Below, piece after piece: positions 17,798-27,754 of a stretch of DNA of 64,000 bases (its first letter is position 1; each line of letters opens with the position of its first letter). The notes below the pieces were generated by a model, which ran no database searches, was not told where the DNA came from, and was given only the letters and a program-made list of their open reading frames with translations. This stretch comes from Deltaproteobacteria bacterium (GTDB lineage: Bacteria; Bdellovibrionota; Bdellovibrionia; Bdellovibrionales; JAMPXM01), in NCBI GenBank assembly GCA_017302795.1, contig JAFLCB010000010.1, forward strand, positions 98,065 through 162,064. The letters are read 5' to 3'. The position numbers were made by a program, and so were the translations under genes.

Positions 17798-19381
17798 ATG
17801 CCTAATAGATTTCATCTCAAAATGTTGACCTACGTCGTAACCTGTCTCGCGCTACCAATACCCGCCTTCGCTACCCAAACCCTCTCGACACCCCTAGAAG
17901 CTAGTCCATCTTCGCCCAATTTTAGATTTAGCTTATCGACCGAACCTTCCCACTTCGATCCTGCGAAAATTACGTCTTCCGAATCCAATTACTTTATTGT
18001 CAACCTGCTTCGCGGCCTCTATTTCATCGACGGAAACGGAGAAGCAAAACCTGAAATCGCAGAGCACTGCACGCAAACCAGCTCATTAAAGATCGAATGC
18101 GTGATCAAGGAGAATGCGAAATGGAGCGATGGTAAAGAAATAGTTGCCGAGGATTTTGTTAAATCTTGGGGTCGGCTGCTTAATCCAGGAGCCAAGGGCA
18201 TTGGCGCCAGCATTCTCTCGAGTGTCGATAACGCGATTGAAATTCATGGCGGAAAAAAGCCAGCGACTGAACTGGGTGTAAGAGTAAAATCGAAACGTGT
18301 TCTCGAAATTTCGCTTAACAAACCAGACTCTGATTTTTTTTCGAAACTTGCTCACCCCGCACTTTCGGTTGTTCGATCTGAAGCCAATTACGCTAGGTCG
18401 GAAGATGCACCAAGTACGCCGGTCTCAGGTCCCTATAAAATCGCACAATGGACTAAATCAAATCGCATTCGCATTACGCCAAACCCGCACTTTGATTCCA
18501 TTCGGCCCAAGCTAAAGGCCCCCCGCCCAGAGGCAGAAATTTTGATCGTCGAAGATGATGAAACCGCTCTCAACCTTTACCGAGAAGGCACACTGACTTT
18601 CCTTCGACGCCTGCCGACTCATTACTTGAAGGATTGGAAGAATTCAAAAGAGCTCTTTCAAATTCCAGTGGTTCGTTTCGACTATATCGGCTTCGGCCCT
18701 CAATTAAGAAATCAAGCTGATCTTCGCAAGGCACTTGCGCTTTCCTTGAACTACCAGGAACTAAAAATTCTTTATTCTGCGTTAGGTATTCCCGGCTGCC
18801 CTGGCCTCTCGCCGGGATGGATGAGTAAAGTGCCGTGTCATGAATTTGATTTGGAAAAAGCCAAAGGGTATTTTGCGAAAGTGCCTGAGAGCATTCGACA
18901 GATGCCGTTAGCGCTTCAATTTTCGAAACTTGGTGGCGACGACACTCAAAAAGGAATGGAATGGGCGCAAGCCCAATGGAAGAAAAATCTGGGCTTTAAA
19001 GTAGAACTTCAGGCAGTTGAACAATCTGTTTTTGTTTCCGGACTGAAAGCCAATCCCCCACCGATTTTCCGAAAAGGCGTCGGCCTCGACCGCGCTTCTT
19101 GCCTGGCCGCAACGGAAATTTTCACGACCGGCGACGGCGAAAATTATATTCGATTGAATGAGAATAACTTCCAGGCTGCCGTTGATAAACTCGCAATCAC
19201 CCGTTCACCAGAAACTCGAAAAGCTCTCTGTACACGCCTTGTTAAAATCTTGCTGGACGACGCTCATATAATACCGCTTGGACAAATTCATTTATCAATT
19301 CTTGCAAAGCCGTCCTTCAAAGGCTGGACCCTCACTCCGCTCAATCAGCTAGACCTAAGTCGACTTCAGGTCTCAAAGTGA
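17798..19381 (+). CDS. Peptide ABC transporter substrate-binding protein (SBP family 5)
   Basis: A 527-residue periplasmic binding protein of the OppA/DppA family. After a signal peptide (cleavage around A-F-A) comes the family opening FRFSLSTEPSHFDPAKITSSES, then LLRGLYFIDGNGEAKPEIAE and NAKWSDGKEIVAEDFVKSW, all typical of SBP_bac_5. These proteins capture oligopeptides for import. There is no permease or ATPase gene beside it, so it is an orphan in this window. The lobe-2 region contains paired Cys (GIPGCPGLSPGWMSKVPC), a possible disulfide. Confidence 0.88.
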   Translation: MPNRFHLKMLTYVVTCLALPIPAFATQTLSTPLEASPSSPNFRFSLSTEPSHFDPAKITSSESNYFIVNLLRGLYFIDGNGEAKPEIAEHCTQTSSLKIECVIKENAKWSDGKEIVAEDFVKSWGRLLNPGAKGIGASILSSVDNAIEIHGGKKPATELGVRVKSKRVLEISLNKPDSDFFSKLAHPALSVVRSEANYARSEDAPSTPVSGPYKIAQWTKSNRIRITPNPHFDSIRPKLKAPRPEAEILIVEDDETALNLYREGTLTFLRRLPTHYLKDWKNSKELFQIPVVRFDYIGFGPQLRNQADLRKALALSLNYQELKILYSALGIPGCPGLSPGWMSKVPCHEFDLEKAKGYFAKVPESIRQMPLALQFSKLGGDDTQKGMEWAQAQWKKNLGFKVELQAVEQSVFVSGLKANPPPIFRKGVGLDRASCLAATEIFTTGDGENYIRLNENNFQAAVDKLAITRSPETRKALCTRLVKILLDDAHIIPLGQIHLSILAKPSFKGWTLTPLNQLDLSRLQVSK

Positions 19382-19447
19382 TAAGCAACTAGTCGTATTT
19401 CAACACTAGACTCATCAAATTCCTGTGACAGGTCGATAGGTTCGCTG

Positions 19448-21112
19448 ATGAGTCGTAAGCCGCACGCGAAACCTAATGTCGTCACCACGTCCGAAACCGA
19501 GCGTTTAGGCCGTTATCGATCTCTCGTAGATACGGGGATTTCGCTTACTCGTGAAAAAGATATCAGTCGAATTCTTGATATCATCATCGACCGTGCACTA
19601 GACGCCACCGGTGCAGATGCGGCCAGTATCTTTTTAACTGAAAATATTAAAATCGATTCGGTAGCGAATACGCAGGCCAAGTACATCCCTGTTCTACGCT
19701 TCCACAGATCCACCAATCGACGATCTGGGAAAACGTATCAGAACAAAATCCTTGAGCTTGAGAAAACCTCTATTGCTGGCTGGGTCGCTATAGAAGGCAA
19801 GGCTGTTCGAATCAATGACTGCTATAATCTTTCTGGCGAATTGGGACTAGTATTCAACAAAGAAGTCGATCTCGAGACTGGTTACAACACGGTTTCCATG
19901 TTGGCAGTCCCGATGACGAGCTCCAACGACAAGGTTCGTGGCGTTCTGCAAATTATAAATAAAATCAAACCAGGCAGTCCTGGGTATATCGATAAAAACA
20001 AGCTGATTGAAGCAACAGATGTAATGCCCTTCACTGACGAAGATGAAGAACTGATGGCAGCTTTTGCATCGCAAGCTTCTGTAGCAATCGAAAACGCAAA
20101 ACTCACTGAGGACATCGAAAATCTCTTTGAAAGCTTCATTCGCGCTTCTGTGACGGCCATCGAATCGCGAGATCCATCGACCAGTGGCCATAGCGACCGC
20201 GTCGCAGTTTTTACTGTTGAATTCGCGAGAGCTGTTCACCAAGCCGAGCTTGGTCCATTTAAAGAAATTCAGTTCAACGATGGTCAAATTCGCGAACTTC
20301 GATATGCCGCGCTCTTGCATGATTTCGGTAAGATTGGCGTCCGAGAGTCCGTTCTGTCTAAGCAGTTAAAACTTTATCCTCACGAGATGGAAACAATCCT
20401 CAACCGTCTTGAAACTGTTCGAGCCAAACAAGAAATGTTGGCTTGGAAAAACACGACAGAAGAGCTCCTCTCATTGATCGACCGCGGAGTTAAAGTCGAC
20501 AAGCCAAAAGACTATGTCGTGAAAGTCGTTAATAAGATCGATGATTTTGCAAAACAATTGCAGCAAGTCCGCCTGTCAATTGTAAAAGCCAATCAGCCTC
20601 AAGTGATTGCAGGCGATTTTGACATCATCAGTCTGATATCTTGGATCAATAAAACGTCGCAAGAAATTGAACAAGCAATTCTGACTCCTGATGAAATCGT
20701 AAAGCTTTCGCTACCCAAAGGTACATTAACGGAAGTGGAGCGACGGGAAATTGAAAGTCACGTCACTCACACCTACCACTTCCTTCGCCAAATCGCTTGG
20801 ACGGAAGATCTCGGTAGCGTCCCAGACATCGCTTACTCCCATCACGAAAAAATGGATGGTTCAGGTTATCCTCGCGGTCTGGTAACAGAACACATTCCAC
20901 TTCAATCGAAACTAATGACGATCGCAGACATTTACGACGCACTGACTTCGATGGATCGTCCTTATAAACCTGCTGTTCAACCCGAACGTGCTATCGACAT
21001 TCTTTTCATGGAAGGTCGAAGTGGAAAACTTGATCTCGATCTGTTGAAAATCTTCGTTGAAGCAGAGGTATGGCGCGCAGCGCTTGGAATGCGGCCTCAA
21101 AAAGCAGCGTAA
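19448..21112 (+). CDS. GAF domain - HD-GYP domain phosphodiesterase
   Basis: A 554-residue cytoplasmic signalling protein. Residues ~15-220 form a GAF domain (DATGADAASIFL, then AIEGKAVRINDCYN and ASQASVAIENA). A HD-GYP domain follows with SGHSDRVAV, LHDFGKIGVRES and, after a ~110-residue helical insertion, HVTHTYHFL and HHEKMDGSGYPRGL. The metal and GYP residues are intact, so c-di-GMP hydrolysis is likely. The long insertion between the HD and GYP parts is typical of one proteobacterial GAF-HD-GYP subfamily. The GAF domain probably senses a small ligand, unknown. It stands alone on its transcript. Confidence 0.9.
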   Translation: MSRKPHAKPNVVTTSETERLGRYRSLVDTGISLTREKDISRILDIIIDRALDATGADAASIFLTENIKIDSVANTQAKYIPVLRFHRSTNRRSGKTYQNKILELEKTSIAGWVAIEGKAVRINDCYNLSGELGLVFNKEVDLETGYNTVSMLAVPMTSSNDKVRGVLQIINKIKPGSPGYIDKNKLIEATDVMPFTDEDEELMAAFASQASVAIENAKLTEDIENLFESFIRASVTAIESRDPSTSGHSDRVAVFTVEFARAVHQAELGPFKEIQFNDGQIRELRYAALLHDFGKIGVRESVLSKQLKLYPHEMETILNRLETVRAKQEMLAWKNTTEELLSLIDRGVKVDKPKDYVVKVVNKIDDFAKQLQQVRLSIVKANQPQVIAGDFDIISLISWINKTSQEIEQAILTPDEIVKLSLPKGTLTEVERREIESHVTHTYHFLRQIAWTEDLGSVPDIAYSHHEKMDGSGYPRGLVTEHIPLQSKLMTIADIYDALTSMDRPYKPAVQPERAIDILFMEGRSGKLDLDLLKIFVEAEVWRAALGMRPQKAA

Positions 21113-21144
21113 CTGCTTCTCTTTATCCATCTCAGCAGCACCGC

Positions 21145-21210
21145 TTGACATAACCCGGGTCCCACTCTTCAAATGGGAGCTCACTCAATTCAATGAGTTC
21201 CCTAGGAGGG
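21145..21210 (+). promoter_or_regulatory. Promoter and ribosome site of the histone gene
   Basis: TTGACA at 21145-21150 is a perfect sigma70 -35 box; a -10-like TCAAAT starts 18 bases later at 21169. A strong AGGAGG at 21204-21209 lies 5 bases before the histone ATG. Between them GGGAGCTCA (21175-21183) can pair with TGAGTTCCC (21194-21202), directly ahead of the ribosome site. The predicted transcription start would fall inside the left arm, so the hairpin may act as DNA or only partly as RNA. Confidence 0.55.
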
Positions 21211-21214
21211 GTTT

Positions 21215-21421
21215 ATGGCAAAAAAAGGCGCAAAAAAAGCAGCTAAAGGCGAAGTTCTCATCATCGCAAGCAAAATGAAAGATGCAATTCGCAAACACGA
21301 TTGCAACGTATCTAGTGACGTTGTTGACGCTCTTAGCGCAAAAGTTCATTCAATGATCGGTGAAGCGGTTGCTCGTTGCAAAGACAACGGCCGCAAAACT
21401 GTTCGTGGCTACGATTTTTAG
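21215..21421 (+). CDS. Bacterial histone-fold DNA-binding protein
   Basis: A 68-residue protein with a Lys/Ala-rich N-terminal tail (MAKKGAKKAAKGE) followed by a single histone fold: short helix (LIIASKMKDAIRKH), loop with NVSSDVVDAL, a long central helix (SAKVHSMIGEAVARCKDN) and the loop-2 signature GRKTVRGYDF. The end is like the R-K-T-V/L-x-x-D of archaeal histones and of the Bdellovibrio histone Bd0055. Such proteins dimerise and bind DNA, and in Bdellovibrio are major chromatin proteins. The N-terminal Lys tail is longer than I expect for that protein. A strong promoter and AGGAGG site suggest high expression. The stop is 6 bp before the next gene. Confidence 0.88.
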   Translation: MAKKGAKKAAKGEVLIIASKMKDAIRKHDCNVSSDVVDALSAKVHSMIGEAVARCKDNGRKTVRGYDF

Positions 21422-21427
21422 TTCGAT

Positions 21428-22252
21428 ATGACTCGGTCAAACTCGACTGAGGATAAGTCTTCACCCGTGGTTAACACGACTCCGGTCGTCGTGATCACGG
21501 GTGCTGGCTCTGGCATAGGCGCTGCGACTGCAGAAAGATTTGCTCGCGAAGGCTGGGAGCTAGTCTTGATTGGTCGACGGCCCGAAGCATTGGACTTAAC
21601 CGCCAAGCGAATCACGCAAATCCTTCTTCAGGATTATCCCGCGCGAAAGCCTTTAATTCACACAATTCCAGTAGATATTTCCAACCTCGAATCGGTCAGC
21701 GTCCTTAATCGGTGGACGAAAATGAGTAGCGGCGTAGCTAATCGGATTCACGCTCTCATACACAATGCCGGCATATTTGAGCGGGAAAAAACAGCATCCT
21801 CAACTGATGTTTCTTGGCATAGAATATTTGAAACAAATCTCTTCGCCGTCATTCGAGTCACTCAGATTGTTTACCCATTACTTAAACAAAATCGCGGCTC
21901 GGTTACCAATATCAGTTCTACTTTGGGATTTCGCCCGACGATGGACACCGCTGCTTATTCGGCCTCAAAGGCAGCGCTCAACAACTGGACCCAAAGTTTC
22001 GCAATCGAGGCCGCGGCCGATGGCGTTCGTGTCAACGCGGTCTGCCCGGGCATCGTGGATACGCCAATTCATGATTTTCACGCGGCCGCTGACAAAGCTG
22101 CGACGCTAGCAAAACTTGGCCCTATCCAACCACTAGGCCGAATCGGACAGCCTAGCGAAATCGCGCACATGGTGTGGACGCTGGCGGGCCCGGGATCCGA
22201 ATGGACCACCGGCGCACTAATTGCCGTTGACGGTGGAATCAGCCTTACATGA
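21428..22252 (+). CDS. Short-chain dehydrogenase/reductase, possibly pteridine-related
   Basis: A 274-residue classical SDR: cofactor motif TGAGSGIGAATA (about residues 25-36), NNAG equivalent IHNAGIF, catalytic Ser in NISSTLGF, YSASK (Tyr and Lys of the active site) and the C-terminal GQPSEIAHMVWTLAG. RR after the second strand (LVLIGRR) suggests NADP(H). Its TGA overlaps the ATG of a 6-pyruvoyl-tetrahydropterin-synthase-like gene (ATGA), so both are made together. That pairing raises the possibility that it acts like sepiapterin reductase, reducing side-chain ketones of a pterin. The specific substrate is inference; the SDR identity is secure. Confidence 0.85.
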   Translation: MTRSNSTEDKSSPVVNTTPVVVITGAGSGIGAATAERFAREGWELVLIGRRPEALDLTAKRITQILLQDYPARKPLIHTIPVDISNLESVSVLNRWTKMSSGVANRIHALIHNAGIFEREKTASSTDVSWHRIFETNLFAVIRVTQIVYPLLKQNRGSVTNISSTLGFRPTMDTAAYSASKAALNNWTQSFAIEAAADGVRVNAVCPGIVDTPIHDFHAAADKAATLAKLGPIQPLGRIGQPSEIAHMVWTLAGPGSEWTTGALIAVDGGISLT

Positions 22253-23004
22253 AACGCCTCTACGTCAGCACGCGTGGTTTTTTTTCGACGGCCCATTTCT
22301 ACAAACAAAAAAACTGGGACACAGAGACCAACGCGAAAGAGTTTGGGCTTTGTTTTTCAGAATTTGGACACGGGCATAACTACAGCTTAGATATCACCTT
22401 CGCCGTTCCGCGCCGGATCGCCAAGATTGAAACCACGTATTCGCAGATTTTACGAGGAGTGAACTCTATCGCGGGTGTGGTCTTGCAGGATTTCGACCAT
22501 CGGCATTTAAATTTCACCCACCCCGACTTTATCTCCGGCGAAAGAATTTCGACGACGGAAGTGATCACAAAAGTATTGGAATCTTCAATTTCAAAACAAT
22601 GGGCCGCCAAACAGTGGGCCCTGGAACATTGGCTCGAGGTTGAATTCCTAGGCGTTCAAGTATGGGAAACGCATCTTCTCGCAGCCTCAACCCAGAAGTC
22701 GCTGATTTGTGTTTCTCGATCGGAGGAGACGTGGACGGCGTTGAAAATCCAACACCCGATTGTTCTCAATTCGGGCGAATCCCGAAGTCTCGCCATCGCA
22801 TTTTTTGAATCCCCGAAAAGAGAAGGACGATCTTCGTCACTTTTTATCGACGCAGAGAAATTTCTAAAGAATGCTGATGGACGCTTTAGCAGTTTAGAAA
22901 ACTTATGTTGCGCACTTCAAGAGAACTTCGGTCATGATGTTCTCTTGAGCACTAAATCCGACTACTTTTTGTTTGCGGGAGCAGAGGGCGCGGAAGCGGA
23001 ATAG
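22249..23004 (+). CDS. 6-pyruvoyl-tetrahydropterin synthase family protein with C-terminal extension
   Basis: The N-terminal ~130 residues are a PTPS/QueD fold: zinc His in FFSTAHF (His ~16) and HGHNY (His ~41 and 43), Cys ~35, and DFDHRHLN. The spacing C-x5-HGHNY matches the tetrahydrobiopterin enzyme PTPS rather than QueD, where the Cys sits closer to HGH. The protein is ~251 residues, with an additional ~110-residue C-terminal part after WETHLLAAS that I do not recognise. The start codon overlaps the SDR stop. Together they could make a reduced biopterin-like cofactor. The 3' end overlaps the convergent gene by 43 bp. Confidence 0.82.
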   Translation: MKRLYVSTRGFFSTAHFYKQKNWDTETNAKEFGLCFSEFGHGHNYSLDITFAVPRRIAKIETTYSQILRGVNSIAGVVLQDFDHRHLNFTHPDFISGERISTTEVITKVLESSISKQWAAKQWALEHWLEVEFLGVQVWETHLLAASTQKSLICVSRSEETWTALKIQHPIVLNSGESRSLAIAFFESPKREGRSSSLFIDAEKFLKNADGRFSSLENLCCALQENFGHDVLLSTKSDYFLFAGAEGAEAE

Positions 23005-23726
23005 GTATAGACTGTGAATCCGTCAAAATCTTTAAACTTCCCGTCCTTTTGCACTTTCACTGCTGCACGGCCTTCGAGCTCTACTAGCTTCTTGCTTTCC
23101 GACTGAAACGTAAAACGCAGTGGTGCGACAAGCGCTGAGATAATCATACTTGTCGGCTTCATTTTAATGACTACTTTGTCAGCGGTCGCACTTTCCTTCG
23201 AGAAACTAAAACCCACACTTTCGCGTCGATCGACCACACCTAGACGAACTTTCAATGTTTCACCGTTTATCAACTTTTCCCAATTGGCTTGCACAAAACC
23301 GAGAACCATTGAGCTGACAATGTAATTTGGCTCGACGGTTTCGCTAGCGGTTTTAGTCTTCCCATCTTTTGTGAAAGAGAATCCCGCTTTACCATCGGCA
23401 ACTTCAATTTTTCCAACTGTTGCCAACTGTTGATGGTCTTGCTCGAACGACACCAGGCTTTCAACACCATTTTCGCCGACCTTCACCACCGTCTTTTCGA
23501 CAACTAAGACTTTTCCCTCTAGATCAAGAAACGTCGTAAGCATTGTCTTCTTGTCGCCGCCCACTTCAAATTCGTTCTTATAGTCAAACATATGCTTTGA
23601 CCGATCTTGAAGGTCATAAATTTTTGCTGAAAACAATGGTGTCATCGCCGCCGAGGCAGATTCACTCCCAACCGATAGCGATCCGACTAAGATAAGAGCC
23701 ATTAAACTGACTGCCACTTTTTTCAT
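22962..23726 (-). CDS. Secreted protein of unknown function
   Basis: A 254-residue protein with a signal peptide ([20 protein letters not shown], cleavage near S-A-S-A-A). The mature sequence alternates strands with charged turns ([53 protein letters not shown]), suggesting a beta-barrel-like or lipocalin-like periplasmic domain with no Cys. No family is recognised. It is convergent with the pterin synthase gene, whose end it overlaps by 43 bp. Confidence 0.7.
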
Positions 23727-23789
23727 TTGAAACCCATCCCCGTTAAAGTTCTTTTACTGCTACTCGATTTTCGTACTATTATAGCTACT

Positions 23790-24524
23790 ATGAACGATAG
23801 CCCCTTGGTCCGTGTATCAAAAATTATGGCTGAACGCGGAATATGCTCCCGTCGTGAAGCCGATGCTTGGATGGAAAAAGGATGGGTCAAAGTAGACGGT
23901 CAAATCGTCTCTGTTGGCCATAAAGCAAAGCTGGATTGCCAAATCGAAATCTCACCCGGCGCTCGGGAAGAGCGAGAGGATCGCGTAACCATACTCATGA
24001 ATAAGCCTATTGGGTTTGTTTCCGGTCAACCTGAGCCGGGTTACGAACCGGCGGTGCGCCTTATCACCCAAGAGAATCATGTTCTATCGCGAGGCGAACC
24101 CACCTTAGATCGACGTCACTTCGCAGGACTTGCCCCTGCTGGGCGCCTGGATATCGATTCAAAGGGGCTACTTGTTTTCACCCAAGATGGAAGGGTGGCG
24201 AGAGAGCTGATAGGCGAAAATTCTGAAATCGAAAAAGAATATCTCGTCCGAGTAAAAGGAAAAATCGTGCAGGGCGGTTTAAAGCTGCTCAACCACGGGC
24301 TAGAACTGGATGGCGAGGCACTTAAGCCAGCATTTGTTGAATGGATCAACGAAGATCAATTGCGATTCATTTTGACCGAGGGAAAAAAACGGCAAGTCCG
24401 TCGGATGTGCGAATTGGTCGGACTCGGAGTGCTCGGCCTAAAGCGAGTTCGGATAGGAAAAGTCATGCTAGGACATCTTCCTGACGGTAAATGGCGCTTT
24501 CTGCGACCAGATGAGAGTTTCTAA
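23790..24524 (+). CDS. RsuA/RluB/RluF-family rRNA pseudouridine synthase
   Basis: About 244 residues. An S4 RNA-binding domain ([27 protein letters not shown]) precedes the pseudouridine synthase domain, whose catalytic Asp lies in [17 protein letters not shown]. The end [13 protein letters not shown] and LKRVRIG is the usual RluB/E/F signature. It isomerises a uridine in ribosomal RNA; the exact position (RluB-, RluE- or RluF-type) cannot be told. The start is put at the ATG giving [11 protein letters not shown]; a TTG 21 codons upstream would only add a hydrophobic non-conserved stretch. Confidence 0.88.
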
Positions 24525-24525
24525 C

Positions 24526-25149
24526 ATGATCTTTGAGCGTTTAGATCGAGGAATCCTTTCTGTCGATATTGGAAAGCTCAAAGCCCACATTGCGGATCAT
24601 GTTTTACCTCTTGAGCCGATTATGGTCGGTCCTTATTTCGGTGGCTGGTCGGTTTGGTCCTCAGATGGAGACTACAAAGACGGATATCAACGGGGGCAGT
24701 TGATGTATGAACCAAGCTTTATGCCGGGTTCTTCGATAAAGGAAAAAGCGGAGGCGCTAGGAATCAAACCGCGAGAAATGTACCGCATCCCTACTTCCAT
24801 TTGCTTTGGATATCTGGCGGAAACCGTCAATCATATTCGCGCCATTGGCCTAGAGCCAGCTCGCGTTCGCCTCTCGCTGCTGAAAGCTGGTGGACAATCT
24901 ACAAAGCACCGCGATGCACCTGAAGGGCGCTACAGCATCCGCCTACATATTCCCATTCTGACAAATCCCCAGGCGGTTTTTTCTTGTGACGACGAGATTA
25001 CGCATATGCCGGCTGATGGTTCGGCTTACATCATCGATGTCAGCCGCGAACATCAAGTCTTCAACCACGGGACGTCTGACCGTATAATTCTTTTGGCCGA
25101 TATTGTCGACCGTCCCTGGATCACCCAGTTTCATCGTCGTCCACTGTGA
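24526..25149 (+). CDS. Aspartyl/asparaginyl beta-hydroxylase-like 2-oxoglutarate/Fe(II) oxygenase
   Basis: About 207 residues with the family signature: LLKAGGQSTKHRDAPEGRYSIRLHIPI gives the H-x-D iron ligands (His ~128, Asp ~130) and the region AYIIDVSREHQVFNHGTSDRI supplies the distal His and the Arg that binds 2-oxoglutarate. Members hydroxylate Asp/Asn side chains of peptides or proteins, or act on small molecules. The ATG at 24526 has GAGAG upstream and begins 1 bp after the pseudouridine synthase stop. It ends 76 bp before a small secreted peptide and a multinuclear iron oxygenase, so it might be a second tailoring enzyme for that peptide; that link is only positional. Confidence 0.8.
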   Translation: MIFERLDRGILSVDIGKLKAHIADHVLPLEPIMVGPYFGGWSVWSSDGDYKDGYQRGQLMYEPSFMPGSSIKEKAEALGIKPREMYRIPTSICFGYLAETVNHIRAIGLEPARVRLSLLKAGGQSTKHRDAPEGRYSIRLHIPILTNPQAVFSCDDEITHMPADGSAYIIDVSREHQVFNHGTSDRIILLADIVDRPWITQFHRRPL

Positions 25150-25189
25150 ATCATGAGAAAACAAACCGACTCAATCTGCTACAGGGCTT

Positions 25190-25225
25190 TTCTAAAAATG
25201 CTCGTATTCTGCTATGCTTACAAGA
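25190..25225 (+). promoter_or_regulatory. Possible promoter of the small-peptide/DUF692 pair
   Basis: TGCTATGCT resembles an extended -10 box (TATGCT at 25213-25218) and would start transcription at or just before the ATG at 25226. That would fit a leaderless message, because no Shine-Dalgarno is visible ahead of that ATG. The -35 is weak. Low confidence; read-through from the upstream hydroxylase gene is equally possible. Confidence 0.3.
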
Positions 25226-25453
25226 ATGTCAAAACATCACTTAGTAATCAAACTCGCAGTGCTTGGCTTTTTGATCCTTCCTGGCACTTCACTTGCCAAA
25301 CCAGCTGTCGAAAAAACCGGCGCAAAAAACGATGCCCAGGCTCCGACGACAAATTCTCCGAAAACGACCGGCGGAAAGTCGAAAATAGACAAAGAGAAAT
25401 TAAAACTTAAACATGCGCTCGGCGGCGGTTGCATGAAATGCGGGATGGGGTAG
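25226..25453 (+). CDS. Small secreted Cys-tailed peptide, candidate RiPP precursor
   Basis: A 75-residue peptide with an N-terminal signal sequence (MSKHHLVIKLAVLGFLILPG, cleavage after T-S-L-A), a ~40-residue Lys/Thr/Pro/Ala-rich linker that looks disordered, and a Gly-rich C-terminus GGGCMKCGMG holding the only two Cys. Its stop codon TAG is followed immediately by the ATG of the DUF692 oxygenase, whose ribosome site (GGGATGGGG) lies within this gene's last codons. Family knowledge: DUF692/MNIO enzymes modify Cys of short precursor peptides (methanobactin, 3-thiaglutamate, bufferin pathways), and some precursors carry signal peptides. I infer that this is the substrate and that the CxxC tail is the modified core. 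An ATG 12 bp upstream is an alternative start. Confidence 0.75.
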   Translation: MSKHHLVIKLAVLGFLILPGTSLAKPAVEKTGAKNDAQAPTTNSPKTTGGKSKIDKEKLKLKHALGGGCMKCGMG

Positions 25454-26572
25454 ATGTTAAAGACTGGTCTCAGTCTTCTTCCGAGTAATGATTACGAACT
25501 CGTTCTTACTGAAAGCGCTTTACCAAAAGATCTCACTCTTGAGCTAACGCTCGACACATTTCATAGCGAATCCGAGCATCCGAATTGGTACACCGAAGCG
25601 ATCAATCAGCACCTTCGAACCGGCGGATCATTTATCGGACATCTTGTTTCTTGGCCTGTCTTTGGGCAATGGCAGAAAGAGCGAGAGCAGGAATATTTCG
25701 AGCTCGTTCGTTCCCAAGTCACCCGCCTAGGAATTCAGGATCTTACGATTCACTATGGAAGCCTCGCCTCCGATCGCAATACTTTACTCCCGCCTGTACC
25801 TCTTCCCCACACTCAATACACAAAAACGAGCTTGAAAAACCAAATGCGGCGCCTTCAGGAAGCCGTTAACTGCAAGGTTGGTGTCGAGATACTGGCGCTC
25901 GCTGTTTCCAAAGAAGATGTCCTCTGGCAACTCGACACGATTGCTGAAGTGTCGGAGCAAGCCGACACTTATGTGCATCTCGATTTTCATAACCTTTTTT
26001 GCCAGTCCGTGAATTTCGGAGCAGATTTCGGAGAGCTTTTGTCCCGGCTTCCACTGGGCCGAATTCGGCATGCCCATATCAGCGGCGGAAGCCAGTCGCT
26101 TCATGGGAAAAACCCCGTACCCTTTCGCCGAGATACCCATGACGATCATGTACCTGAGGAACTGTGGAGCCTTTTGGAGCATTGGCTTGGAAGTCTCACA
26201 AATCTTTCGACAATTACTTTCGAACGAATTGCGGGTTCTTTCGATGATTCGCCTTTAACCAGAACATCGGTCGTTCGAGAGCTACTTCGTCTCAACGACC
26301 TCGTCATCCGCCAGAATAAAGCTGAATACAATCGCACAAACCGACATTTAACAGATCGAAATTTACGTGACTTTGCGAACAAACGTGAAACAAACCCGGC
26401 CGACATTCAATTGTTGAATCCGATAGCTGCTGAGGTCTTGATTGAGCTAATCAGAAATCAAGATGTTCATAAGCTTTCCAAGCTTTACTCAGCTCAAAAT
26501 TCAAACACGGCAGCCATCGATTTGCGAGCGGTCGACGCCGCTCGCCTAATTTTAGAAAAGTGGACGATTTAA
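25454..26572 (+). CDS. DUF692/MNIO-family multinuclear iron-dependent oxidative enzyme
   Basis: A 372-residue protein whose first ~280 residues match the TIM-barrel DUF692 (MNIO) family. Candidate iron ligands are all present in order: His63 in GSFIGHLVSW, His100 in IHYGS, Glu145 in GVEIL, Asp177/His179/Asn180 in HLDFHN, His208 in AHISGG, Asp227 and His229 in RRDTHDD, Glu257 in TFERI; the PLPHTQYTK segment matches the family's PLPYTEE. These enzymes use a mixed-valent iron cluster to convert peptide Cys into oxazolone/thioamide, thiooxazole or related groups. The last ~90 residues are helical and not recognised; no separate partner (DUF2063/MbnC type) is adjacent, so this tail may replace it. 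The start abuts the stop of a Cys-tailed secreted peptide. Confidence 0.85.
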   Translation: MLKTGLSLLPSNDYELVLTESALPKDLTLELTLDTFHSESEHPNWYTEAINQHLRTGGSFIGHLVSWPVFGQWQKEREQEYFELVRSQVTRLGIQDLTIHYGSLASDRNTLLPPVPLPHTQYTKTSLKNQMRRLQEAVNCKVGVEILALAVSKEDVLWQLDTIAEVSEQADTYVHLDFHNLFCQSVNFGADFGELLSRLPLGRIRHAHISGGSQSLHGKNPVPFRRDTHDDHVPEELWSLLEHWLGSLTNLSTITFERIAGSFDDSPLTRTSVVRELLRLNDLVIRQNKAEYNRTNRHLTDRNLRDFANKRETNPADIQLLNPIAAEVLIELIRNQDVHKLSKLYSAQNSNTAAIDLRAVDAARLILEKWTI

Positions 26573-26575
26573 ATC

Positions 26576-27754
26576 CTAGCGGAACGTCGCAATGCCCGTA
26601 ATCTGTTGACCAACGACAAGACGGTGAATGTCTTCCGTACCTTCGTAAGTGTTCACCGACTCTAGATTTAGCATGTGACGGATGACTGGATATTCATCGA
26701 TGATTCCGTTACCGCCCAGCATATCGCGGGCTTCGCGAGCGGTTTCTAGCGCAAGTTTACAGTTGTTCATTTTTGCCAATGAAACGTGGTGCGGCTGAAG
26801 CTCACCGCGCTCTTTTAGGCGACCCAGCTGAATTGCCAAGAGCTGACCCTTCGTGATTTCTTGTACCATTTTAACAAGCTTCGCCTGAGCCAATTGGTAA
26901 CCTGCCAGCGGCTTGTCATCAAAAATGATTCGCTCTTTCGCGTAATTCAATGCCGCGTGGTAACACGCATCGGCGGCACCCAAAACTCCCCACGCAATAC
27001 CGTAGCGGGCTTGAGTTAAGCAACCAAGTGGCGCCTTCAACCCTTCTCCGTTAGGCAAAAGCTGTGACTCGGGAACAACGCAATCTTGGAAATGTAGCTC
27101 AGAGGTGACACTCACGCGAAGCGAGAACTTCCCTTCCATTTTGCTTGTTGTGAAACCCGGAGTTCCTCTTTCGACGATGAAACCACGAATTTTTCCGCCC
27201 TCGTTTTCAACCCGTGCCCAAACAATTGCTATGTCGGCAATGCTACCGTTGGTAATCCACATTTTATTGCCGTTGATTTTGTATCCACCTGGGACCTTTA
27301 CAGCCCGAGTCAGCATTCCTCCTGGATTCGAACCGGCATCTGGTTCCGTTAAACCAAAGCAGCCAACGAGCTCTGCTGTCGCAAGTTTCGGCAAATACTT
27401 CTGCCGCTGCTCCTCTGAACCATAAGCGTAGATGGGATACATGACGAGCGAGCCTTGAACCGAGCAAAAAGATCGAATGCCAGAATCTCCGCGCTCAAGC
27501 TCTTGAGTCATCAATCCGTAAGCAACGTGCCCTAGGCCCGCACAGCCGTAGCCTTGGATTGTAGATCCCAAGAGTCCCATTTCGCCGAACTGGGGGATGA
27601 GCTCCATCGGAAAACGCTCTTCGCGGTGGCATTGAATCAGAAGTGGTTCGACTTTTTCTGTGACAAAGTCGCGCACACTTTGACGGACCATGAGCTCATC
27701 TTCGGTCAAAAGACTGTCCGAGTTCATGTAGTTGAGTGATTCGTATGCGGCCAT
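26576..27754 (-). CDS. gcdH: Acyl-CoA dehydrogenase, glutaryl-CoA dehydrogenase type
   Basis: A 392-residue FAD-dependent acyl-CoA dehydrogenase. Signatures include CFGLTEPDAGSNPGGM, the FAD/substrate region KMWITNGSIADIAIVWAR and the C-terminal catalytic-Glu block NLESVNTYEGTEDIHRLVVGQQITGIATF, which is the form found in glutaryl-CoA dehydrogenase (oxidation and decarboxylation of glutaryl-CoA to crotonyl-CoA in Lys/Trp breakdown). The window also holds kynA and kynB, the first steps of Trp catabolism. Convergent with the DUF692 gene (3 bp apart) and divergent from the E1 gene. Confidence 0.85.
   Translation of the reverse strand: MAAYESLNYMNSDSLLTEDELMVRQSVRDFVTEKVEPLLIQCHREERFPMELIPQFGEMGLLGSTIQGYGCAGLGHVAYGLMTQELERGDSGIRSFCSVQGSLVMYPIYAYGSEEQRQKYLPKLATAELVGCFGLTEPDAGSNPGGMLTRAVKVPGGYKINGNKMWITNGSIADIAIVWARVENEGGKIRGFIVERGTPGFTTSKMEGKFSLRVSVTSELHFQDCVVPESQLLPNGEGLKAPLGCLTQARYGIAWGVLGAADACYHAALNYAKERIIFDDKPLAGYQLAQAKLVKMVQEITKGQLLAIQLGRLKERGELQPHHVSLAKMNNCKLALETAREARDMLGGNGIIDEYPVIRHMLNLESVNTYEGTEDIHRLVVGQQITGIATFR

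Follow-up and report, generated by a model that had tools for sequence, protein, structure and literature searches.

The locus described here raises the question of what kind of histone, if any, is encoded by a short open reading frame in a 64,000-nucleotide stretch of a Bdellovibrionia genome (the window), and whether its basic N-terminus and upstream signals set it apart. The first-pass annotation had proposed that the 68-residue product is a single histone fold with an R-K-T-V-x-x-x-D end, and both proposals held up. The protein ends in GRKTVRGYDF, i.e. R60-K-T-V-x-x-x-D67-F68, and homologues with 95, 88 and 82% identity were found in other assemblies. An AlphaFold2 model built on a 26-row alignment (mean pLDDT 82) contained the two helices listed in Table 1 and a three-residue final turn, with DF as the end of the chain. 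Foldseek matched this monomer model best to HLp of Leptospira perolatii (9QT0; TM score 0.96 normalised by target length, rmsd 0.7), and the histone fold was thereby present in the prediction. VIA gave Z scores of 8.3 to 9QT1/9QT0 and of 7.6-7.7 to HBb of Bdellovibrio bacteriovorus and HTkC of Thermococcus kodakarensis; as rows no more than one Z unit apart count as tied, the gap between HLp and HBb, which is below 1, does not rank them. By sequence, phmmer against the PDB ranked HLp 9QT0 first (E 4.5e-8), followed by HBb (1.5e-5) and HTkC 9F2C (2.6e-4). The Pfam families CENP-X and CBFD_NFYB_HMF matched under their gathering cut-offs and the NCBIfam family archaea_histone reached 13 bits (cut-off 50); a match to NCBIfam L-threonate dehydrogenase (16 bits, cut-off 350) was dismissed as noise. 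Homologues, phmmer matches and predicted fold together indicate that the open reading frame is a genuine histone-fold protein, beyond chance.

Table 1. Features at the histone locus (positions within the window)
Feature	Position	Strand	Remarks
Upstream GAF + HD-GYP protein	19448..21112	+	adjoins histone in five family genera
TTGACA, -35-like	21145..21150	+	6/6 consensus; no acceptable -10
Possible leader hairpin	21160..21212	+	pairs Shine-Dalgarno with upstream CCCACUCUU; weak
Shine-Dalgarno AGGAGG	21204..21209	+	5 nt ahead of ATG
FtF-type alpha3 histone gene	21215..21421	+	68 aa; ORF, phmmer, predicted structure, family residues
Basic tail MAKKGAKKAAKG, residues 1-12	21215..21250	+	net +5; residues 4-10 pLDDT <50, predicted disordered
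Histone fold	21251..21418	+	alpha1 18-26, alpha2 35-57, one-turn alpha3 at C-terminus
Downstream short-chain dehydrogenase (SDR)	21428..22252	+	directly after HD-GYP where histone absent

The protein carries the traits of face-to-face (FtF) histones: a single fold with a short alpha2 and, in the model, an alpha3 truncated to 3-4 residues; the RxTxxxxD motif with its RD clamp (R60, T62, D67); and the dimer-dimer contact residues R48 and N52 of the profile numbering, here R54 and N58. The text sections of PMC12701072 name R49, N53, R55 and F63 as the tetramer residues of HLp and R55-D62 as its RD clamp, and in our alignment HLp R49, N53, R55, D62 and F63 correspond to R54, N58, R60, D67 and F68. 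In the phmmer alignment D57 and Y66 take the place of HLp S52 and T61. All 26 aligned relatives keep R54 and N58. The sequence stands nearer to HLp than to the other families, but this does not extend to HTkC. Archaeal nucleosomal histones have a full-length alpha3 of about 10 residues, and here the predicted chain stops after one turn. For the N-terminal ZZ zinc-binding domain of Bd3044-type histones 68 residues leave no room, and the long relatives of ZZ-like type (e.g. L035, L046) are encoded by genes of their own. HBb dimers cluster with HBb and lack the R/N tetramer residues, which are present here; the HBb-type paralogue in the window genome, 39% identical to the window histone, has S and D at these positions. 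Because HLp is the best match, R54 and N58 are kept and a separate HBb-type paralogue exists, sequence and model together indicate an FtF alpha3 histone and not an orthologue of Bd0055/HBb. The kinship to the main Bdellovibrio histone suggested earlier survives as that of a cousin only; the true orthologue is the paralogue (G000:C1:590749), which matches HBb at E about 2e-30. The window histone adds one more case to an already described family, in which bacterial proteins often have tails.

A Lys-rich tail does precede the fold, as annotated, and we surveyed how widespread such tails are. At least eight residues lie before the fold in 18 of the 22 distinct FtF proteins of class Bdellovibrionia (range 8-38), and a charge of +3 or more was found in 17 of the 22. 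In the window's family the fold is preceded by 10-27 residues, with a charge of +4 or more, in all eight FtF proteins; in the other Bdellovibrionia families at least eight residues precede it in 10/14 (range 4-38; longest L029), and in the other classes of the phylum in 36/84, four of 88 sequences there being without a parsed tail. L012 and L013, among L008-L013, were not parsed as FtF, L094 and L113 were unparsed in the comparison of tetramer residues, and both this survey and the tree described below omit loci that duplicate a genome or a protein (L014-L016, L028, L067-L071, L073-L077, L079, L080, L087-L089). The survey agrees with the text sections of Schwab 2024 (PMC11390915), according to which bacterial FtF histones commonly bear tails, mostly of positive charge; such a tail is usual in this group. 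The first-pass view of the tail as unusual was therefore not sustained, and the question of whether family members share it was answered largely in the affirmative. Its supposed absence from minimal bacterial histones is correct for HBb-type dimers only; these HBb-type proteins also fit the text of PMC10627809, which states that long tails are missing from most bacterial singlets. Three FtF histones, L029 (1417-1707), L097 and L091, start with a Lys/Ala/Thr/Pro-rich stretch of about 36-42 residues ahead of the fold, which resembles linker-histone tails.

A match of any kind to the window protein was present in 130/143 Bdellovibrionia genomes, the class being that given by the NCBI lineage for the organism of L006. 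Our FtF profile search covered 368 genomes of the phylum and, combined with the tetramer-residue criterion, identified an FtF gene in 23 of the 143: in 8 of the 12 genomes of the window's family (f1), in 3 of f6, 1 of f8, 8 of f9 and 3 of f11, and by the same criterion in none of f3, the family of Bdellovibrio-like genomes. In this search the FtF-type matches formed a distinct set. Beyond the regions that already had a locus, 77 (L095-L171) were fetched at E 7.9e-19 or better; 76 were parsed, and each of these 76 has R or K at one tetramer position and N at the other. In the three regions that follow (L172-L174, E 2.7e-18 and worse) the N gives way to E or D. The text sections of PMC11390915 assign FtF histones to class Bacteriovoracia and dimers to class Bdellovibrionia, 'predominantly'. 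A gene for an HBb-type tail-less dimer was present in all 23 FtF-bearing genomes of the latter class, i.e. in the window genome itself, in 18 among fetched regions and in four found by a further search (61-88% identity; E 2.4e-20 or better). In another Bdellovibrionia genome (G016), HBb is identical to 8FVX at 60 of 64 aligned positions. The window genome also carries four HU/IHF-family (PF00216) genes. This constant pairing of an FtF gene with an HBb-type dimer gene is the less expected and more useful observation; in the text passages and sections of the literature searched, supplements being outside the search, the overlap was not found stated, and it may be given in supplements.

The genes next to the histone vary between relatives. 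The order HD-GYP, histone, SDR, PTPS-like is seen in four genera (g1, g5, g6, g7), and in a fifth (g2) the histone is flanked by HD-GYP and PTPS. Since HD-GYP and SDR directly adjoin without the histone in G084 (g3) and G086 (g4), L181 and L183 being such empty sites, the histone gene is a solitary insertion or mover and not a fixed operon member. G084 carries its FtF gene (L017) on a different contig, and the profile search found none in the 57% complete genome G086, whose empty site suggests possible absence from some relatives, so that the gene need not be essential. The absence of the histone from G081, G078 and G085 is no evidence, as the adjoining HD-GYP gene is missing too; in G082 the locus runs off the contig end, and several other seeming absences within the family go back to gaps in the assemblies. 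An operon with functional partners was rejected, because conservation of the neighbours is limited to part of one family and, in G086 and G084, they lie side by side with no histone between them. A phage origin was likewise rejected, with no match to the histone in 50,697 phage records and no PHROG. Plasmid matches (40 records; haloarchaea in 10/10 genera of the tally and in 20/20 rows listed) were to known-type DUF1931/DNA-binding proteins and were set aside. An archaeal MAG carries, on a short contig, an FtF histone without a tail (L008, 968-1144), which is 68% identical to the window histone and nearer to it than many bacterial relatives are. In a FastTree tree of 112 sequences (fold only), a node with support 0.67 joined the window genus group, L008, L010 and others, and L008 did not group with the window histone alone. 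There may have been transfer from DPANN archaea, or L008 may be misbinned. Elsewhere in the window (25214-26572, + strand), a 79-aa open reading frame with a signal-like N-terminus and the C-terminus GGGCMKCGMG is followed directly by a gene for an MbnB/TglH/ChrH-type enzyme (PF05114, E 6e-22), and by sequence the pair resembles a RiPP precursor and the enzyme that modifies it.

The first-pass annotation had also inferred abundance from a strong promoter. The near-consensus -35 box and the AGGAGG site exist as described (Table 1). However, a strict sigma-70 scan found no promoter (0.4 expected), the best -10 after TTGACA is TCAAAT (spacing 18, 4/6), and the -35 counterpart is TTGACT in L005, GTGACT in L006 and unrecognisable in L007. 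With the scan empty and the -35 not conserved, a strong promoter was rejected. In the predicted leader hairpin the Shine-Dalgarno base-pairs with a run of pyrimidines further upstream, both in the window (z -1.0, no better than shuffles, 33/200 of which were as good) and in L005 (z -2.4); no such hairpin was predicted in the L006 or L007 leaders. Since it is limited to the window and L005, and an Rfam search of 19000-26600 gave no match up to E 1, a conserved leader RNA was rejected; the hairpin may conceivably hide the Shine-Dalgarno. Codon usage gave a clearer signal. Relative to 21 ribosomal/EF-G genes of the same genome, the codon adaptation of the histone was 0.835 (fold alone 0.831), above all reference genes (0.66-0.82, leave-one-out) and all 53 window genes of at least 150 aa (0.58-0.73); 3000 pieces of 67 codons, drawn at random from window genes, all stayed below the histone. 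The HBb paralogue scored 0.85, and both histones are thus at ribosomal-gene codon bias. The window histone is probably abundant, as the annotation held, with codon usage as better support than the promoter.

We propose, with a probability of roughly 0.85, that the window histone is an abundant FtF alpha3 chromatin protein whose tetramer wraps DNA, beside an HBb-type dimer and HU/IHF. By homology to HLp, which the text sections of PMC12701072 describe as a DNA-wrapping tetramer (9QT0), monomers would pair into a handshake dimer, and two dimers would join through R54, N58 and R60 into a torus-shaped tetramer that, by analogy, would wrap about 60 bp of DNA with no sequence preference. The flexible Lys-rich tail may add non-specific contacts to the same or neighbouring DNA. 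Judged by codon usage, the protein would be expressed at a high level beside the tail-less, DNA-bending HBb-type dimer, with the four HU/IHF-family proteins alongside both histones. Because the structure predicted was that of a single chain, the tetramer is drawn from residues and homology; the D57/Y66 substitutions and the HLp-HBb Z gap are points against the proposal, as are the weak promoter and the empty site in G086.

Two other accounts have to be weighed against this proposal. The protein could be a second HBb/Bd0055-type histone that bends DNA as a dimer, given that the window genome shares its class with Bdellovibrio, that HBb from the PDB ranks second in sequence and near in structure, and that RKTVxxxD is common to both; but R54 and N58, present here, are missing from HBb-type proteins, the phylum-wide FtF-type matches (E 8e-19 or better) stop just above L172-L174 with their E/D for N, and the genome already holds a separate HBb orthologue, which together make a dimer very unlikely. 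It could instead be a specialised conditional regulator of low abundance, acting for example at one stage of the predatory cycle under hairpin-controlled translation, and not a bulk chromatin protein. The weak, unconserved promoter, the pairing of the Shine-Dalgarno in the window and L005 and the patchy distribution (23/143) would suit such a role, whereas codon usage like that of the most expressed genes, a window leader indistinguishable from shuffles and the lack of the hairpin in L006 and L007 speak against it, and we consider it improbable.

The FtF tetramer reading can be set against the systems already known. The window histone resembles HLp (9QT0-9QT2; PMC12701072, text sections) in its fold, tetramer residues and RD clamp, C-terminal Phe, disordered N-terminus and length (63 aa in HLp); it differs in its core (41% identity), in loop 2 (RKTV versus RTTV) and in its longer, more basic tail. 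Furthermore, the window genome has HBb and four HU/IHF-family genes, in contrast to these Leptospira, for which the same sections report just one histone and neither HU nor Dps. The design of tail and core is shared with other positively tailed FtF histones of bacteria, but those placed in Bdellovibrionota by the text of PMC11390915 belong to Bacteriovoracia, and the window histone to Bdellovibrionia. HBb/Bd0055 (8FVX, 8CMP) shares the alpha3-truncated fold and RKTVxxxD, but is dimeric and has neither tail nor R/N tetramer residues. HTkC has the FtF torus fold that is proposed for the window histone, at about 30% identity, and archaeal FtF histones are described in the text of PMC11390915 as generally tail-less.

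So far, the two architectures have been studied singly, HLp in Leptospira with its single histone and HBb in Bdellovibrio with HBb and a ZZ histone. Here the tetramer type and the dimer type occur in one genome, with a tail on one only, so that division of labour and tail function become testable in one cell; the discussion section of PMC12701072 names the interaction of histone variants as an open question. A tentative extension, which we think doubtful at present, is that some Bdellovibrionia have a two-histone chromatin of tailed DNA-wrapping FtF tetramer, tail-less DNA-bending HBb dimer and HU/IHF, in which the tail would tune bridging or condensation of DNA by the tetramer. If true, this system would mirror, in bacteria, the way in which core-histone tails and linker histones divide their tasks; in L029 the linker-histone-like tail reaches 38 residues. 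In the other classes of the phylum, 16 of the 72 genomes with parsed FtF genes carry two of them, and in most pairs a short, near-neutral protein goes with a longer, basic one; two-FtF genomes of another class include G219 (L085/L099), G221 (L092/L101), G172 (L141/L169), G177 (L140/L165) and G178 (L128/L163), among others.
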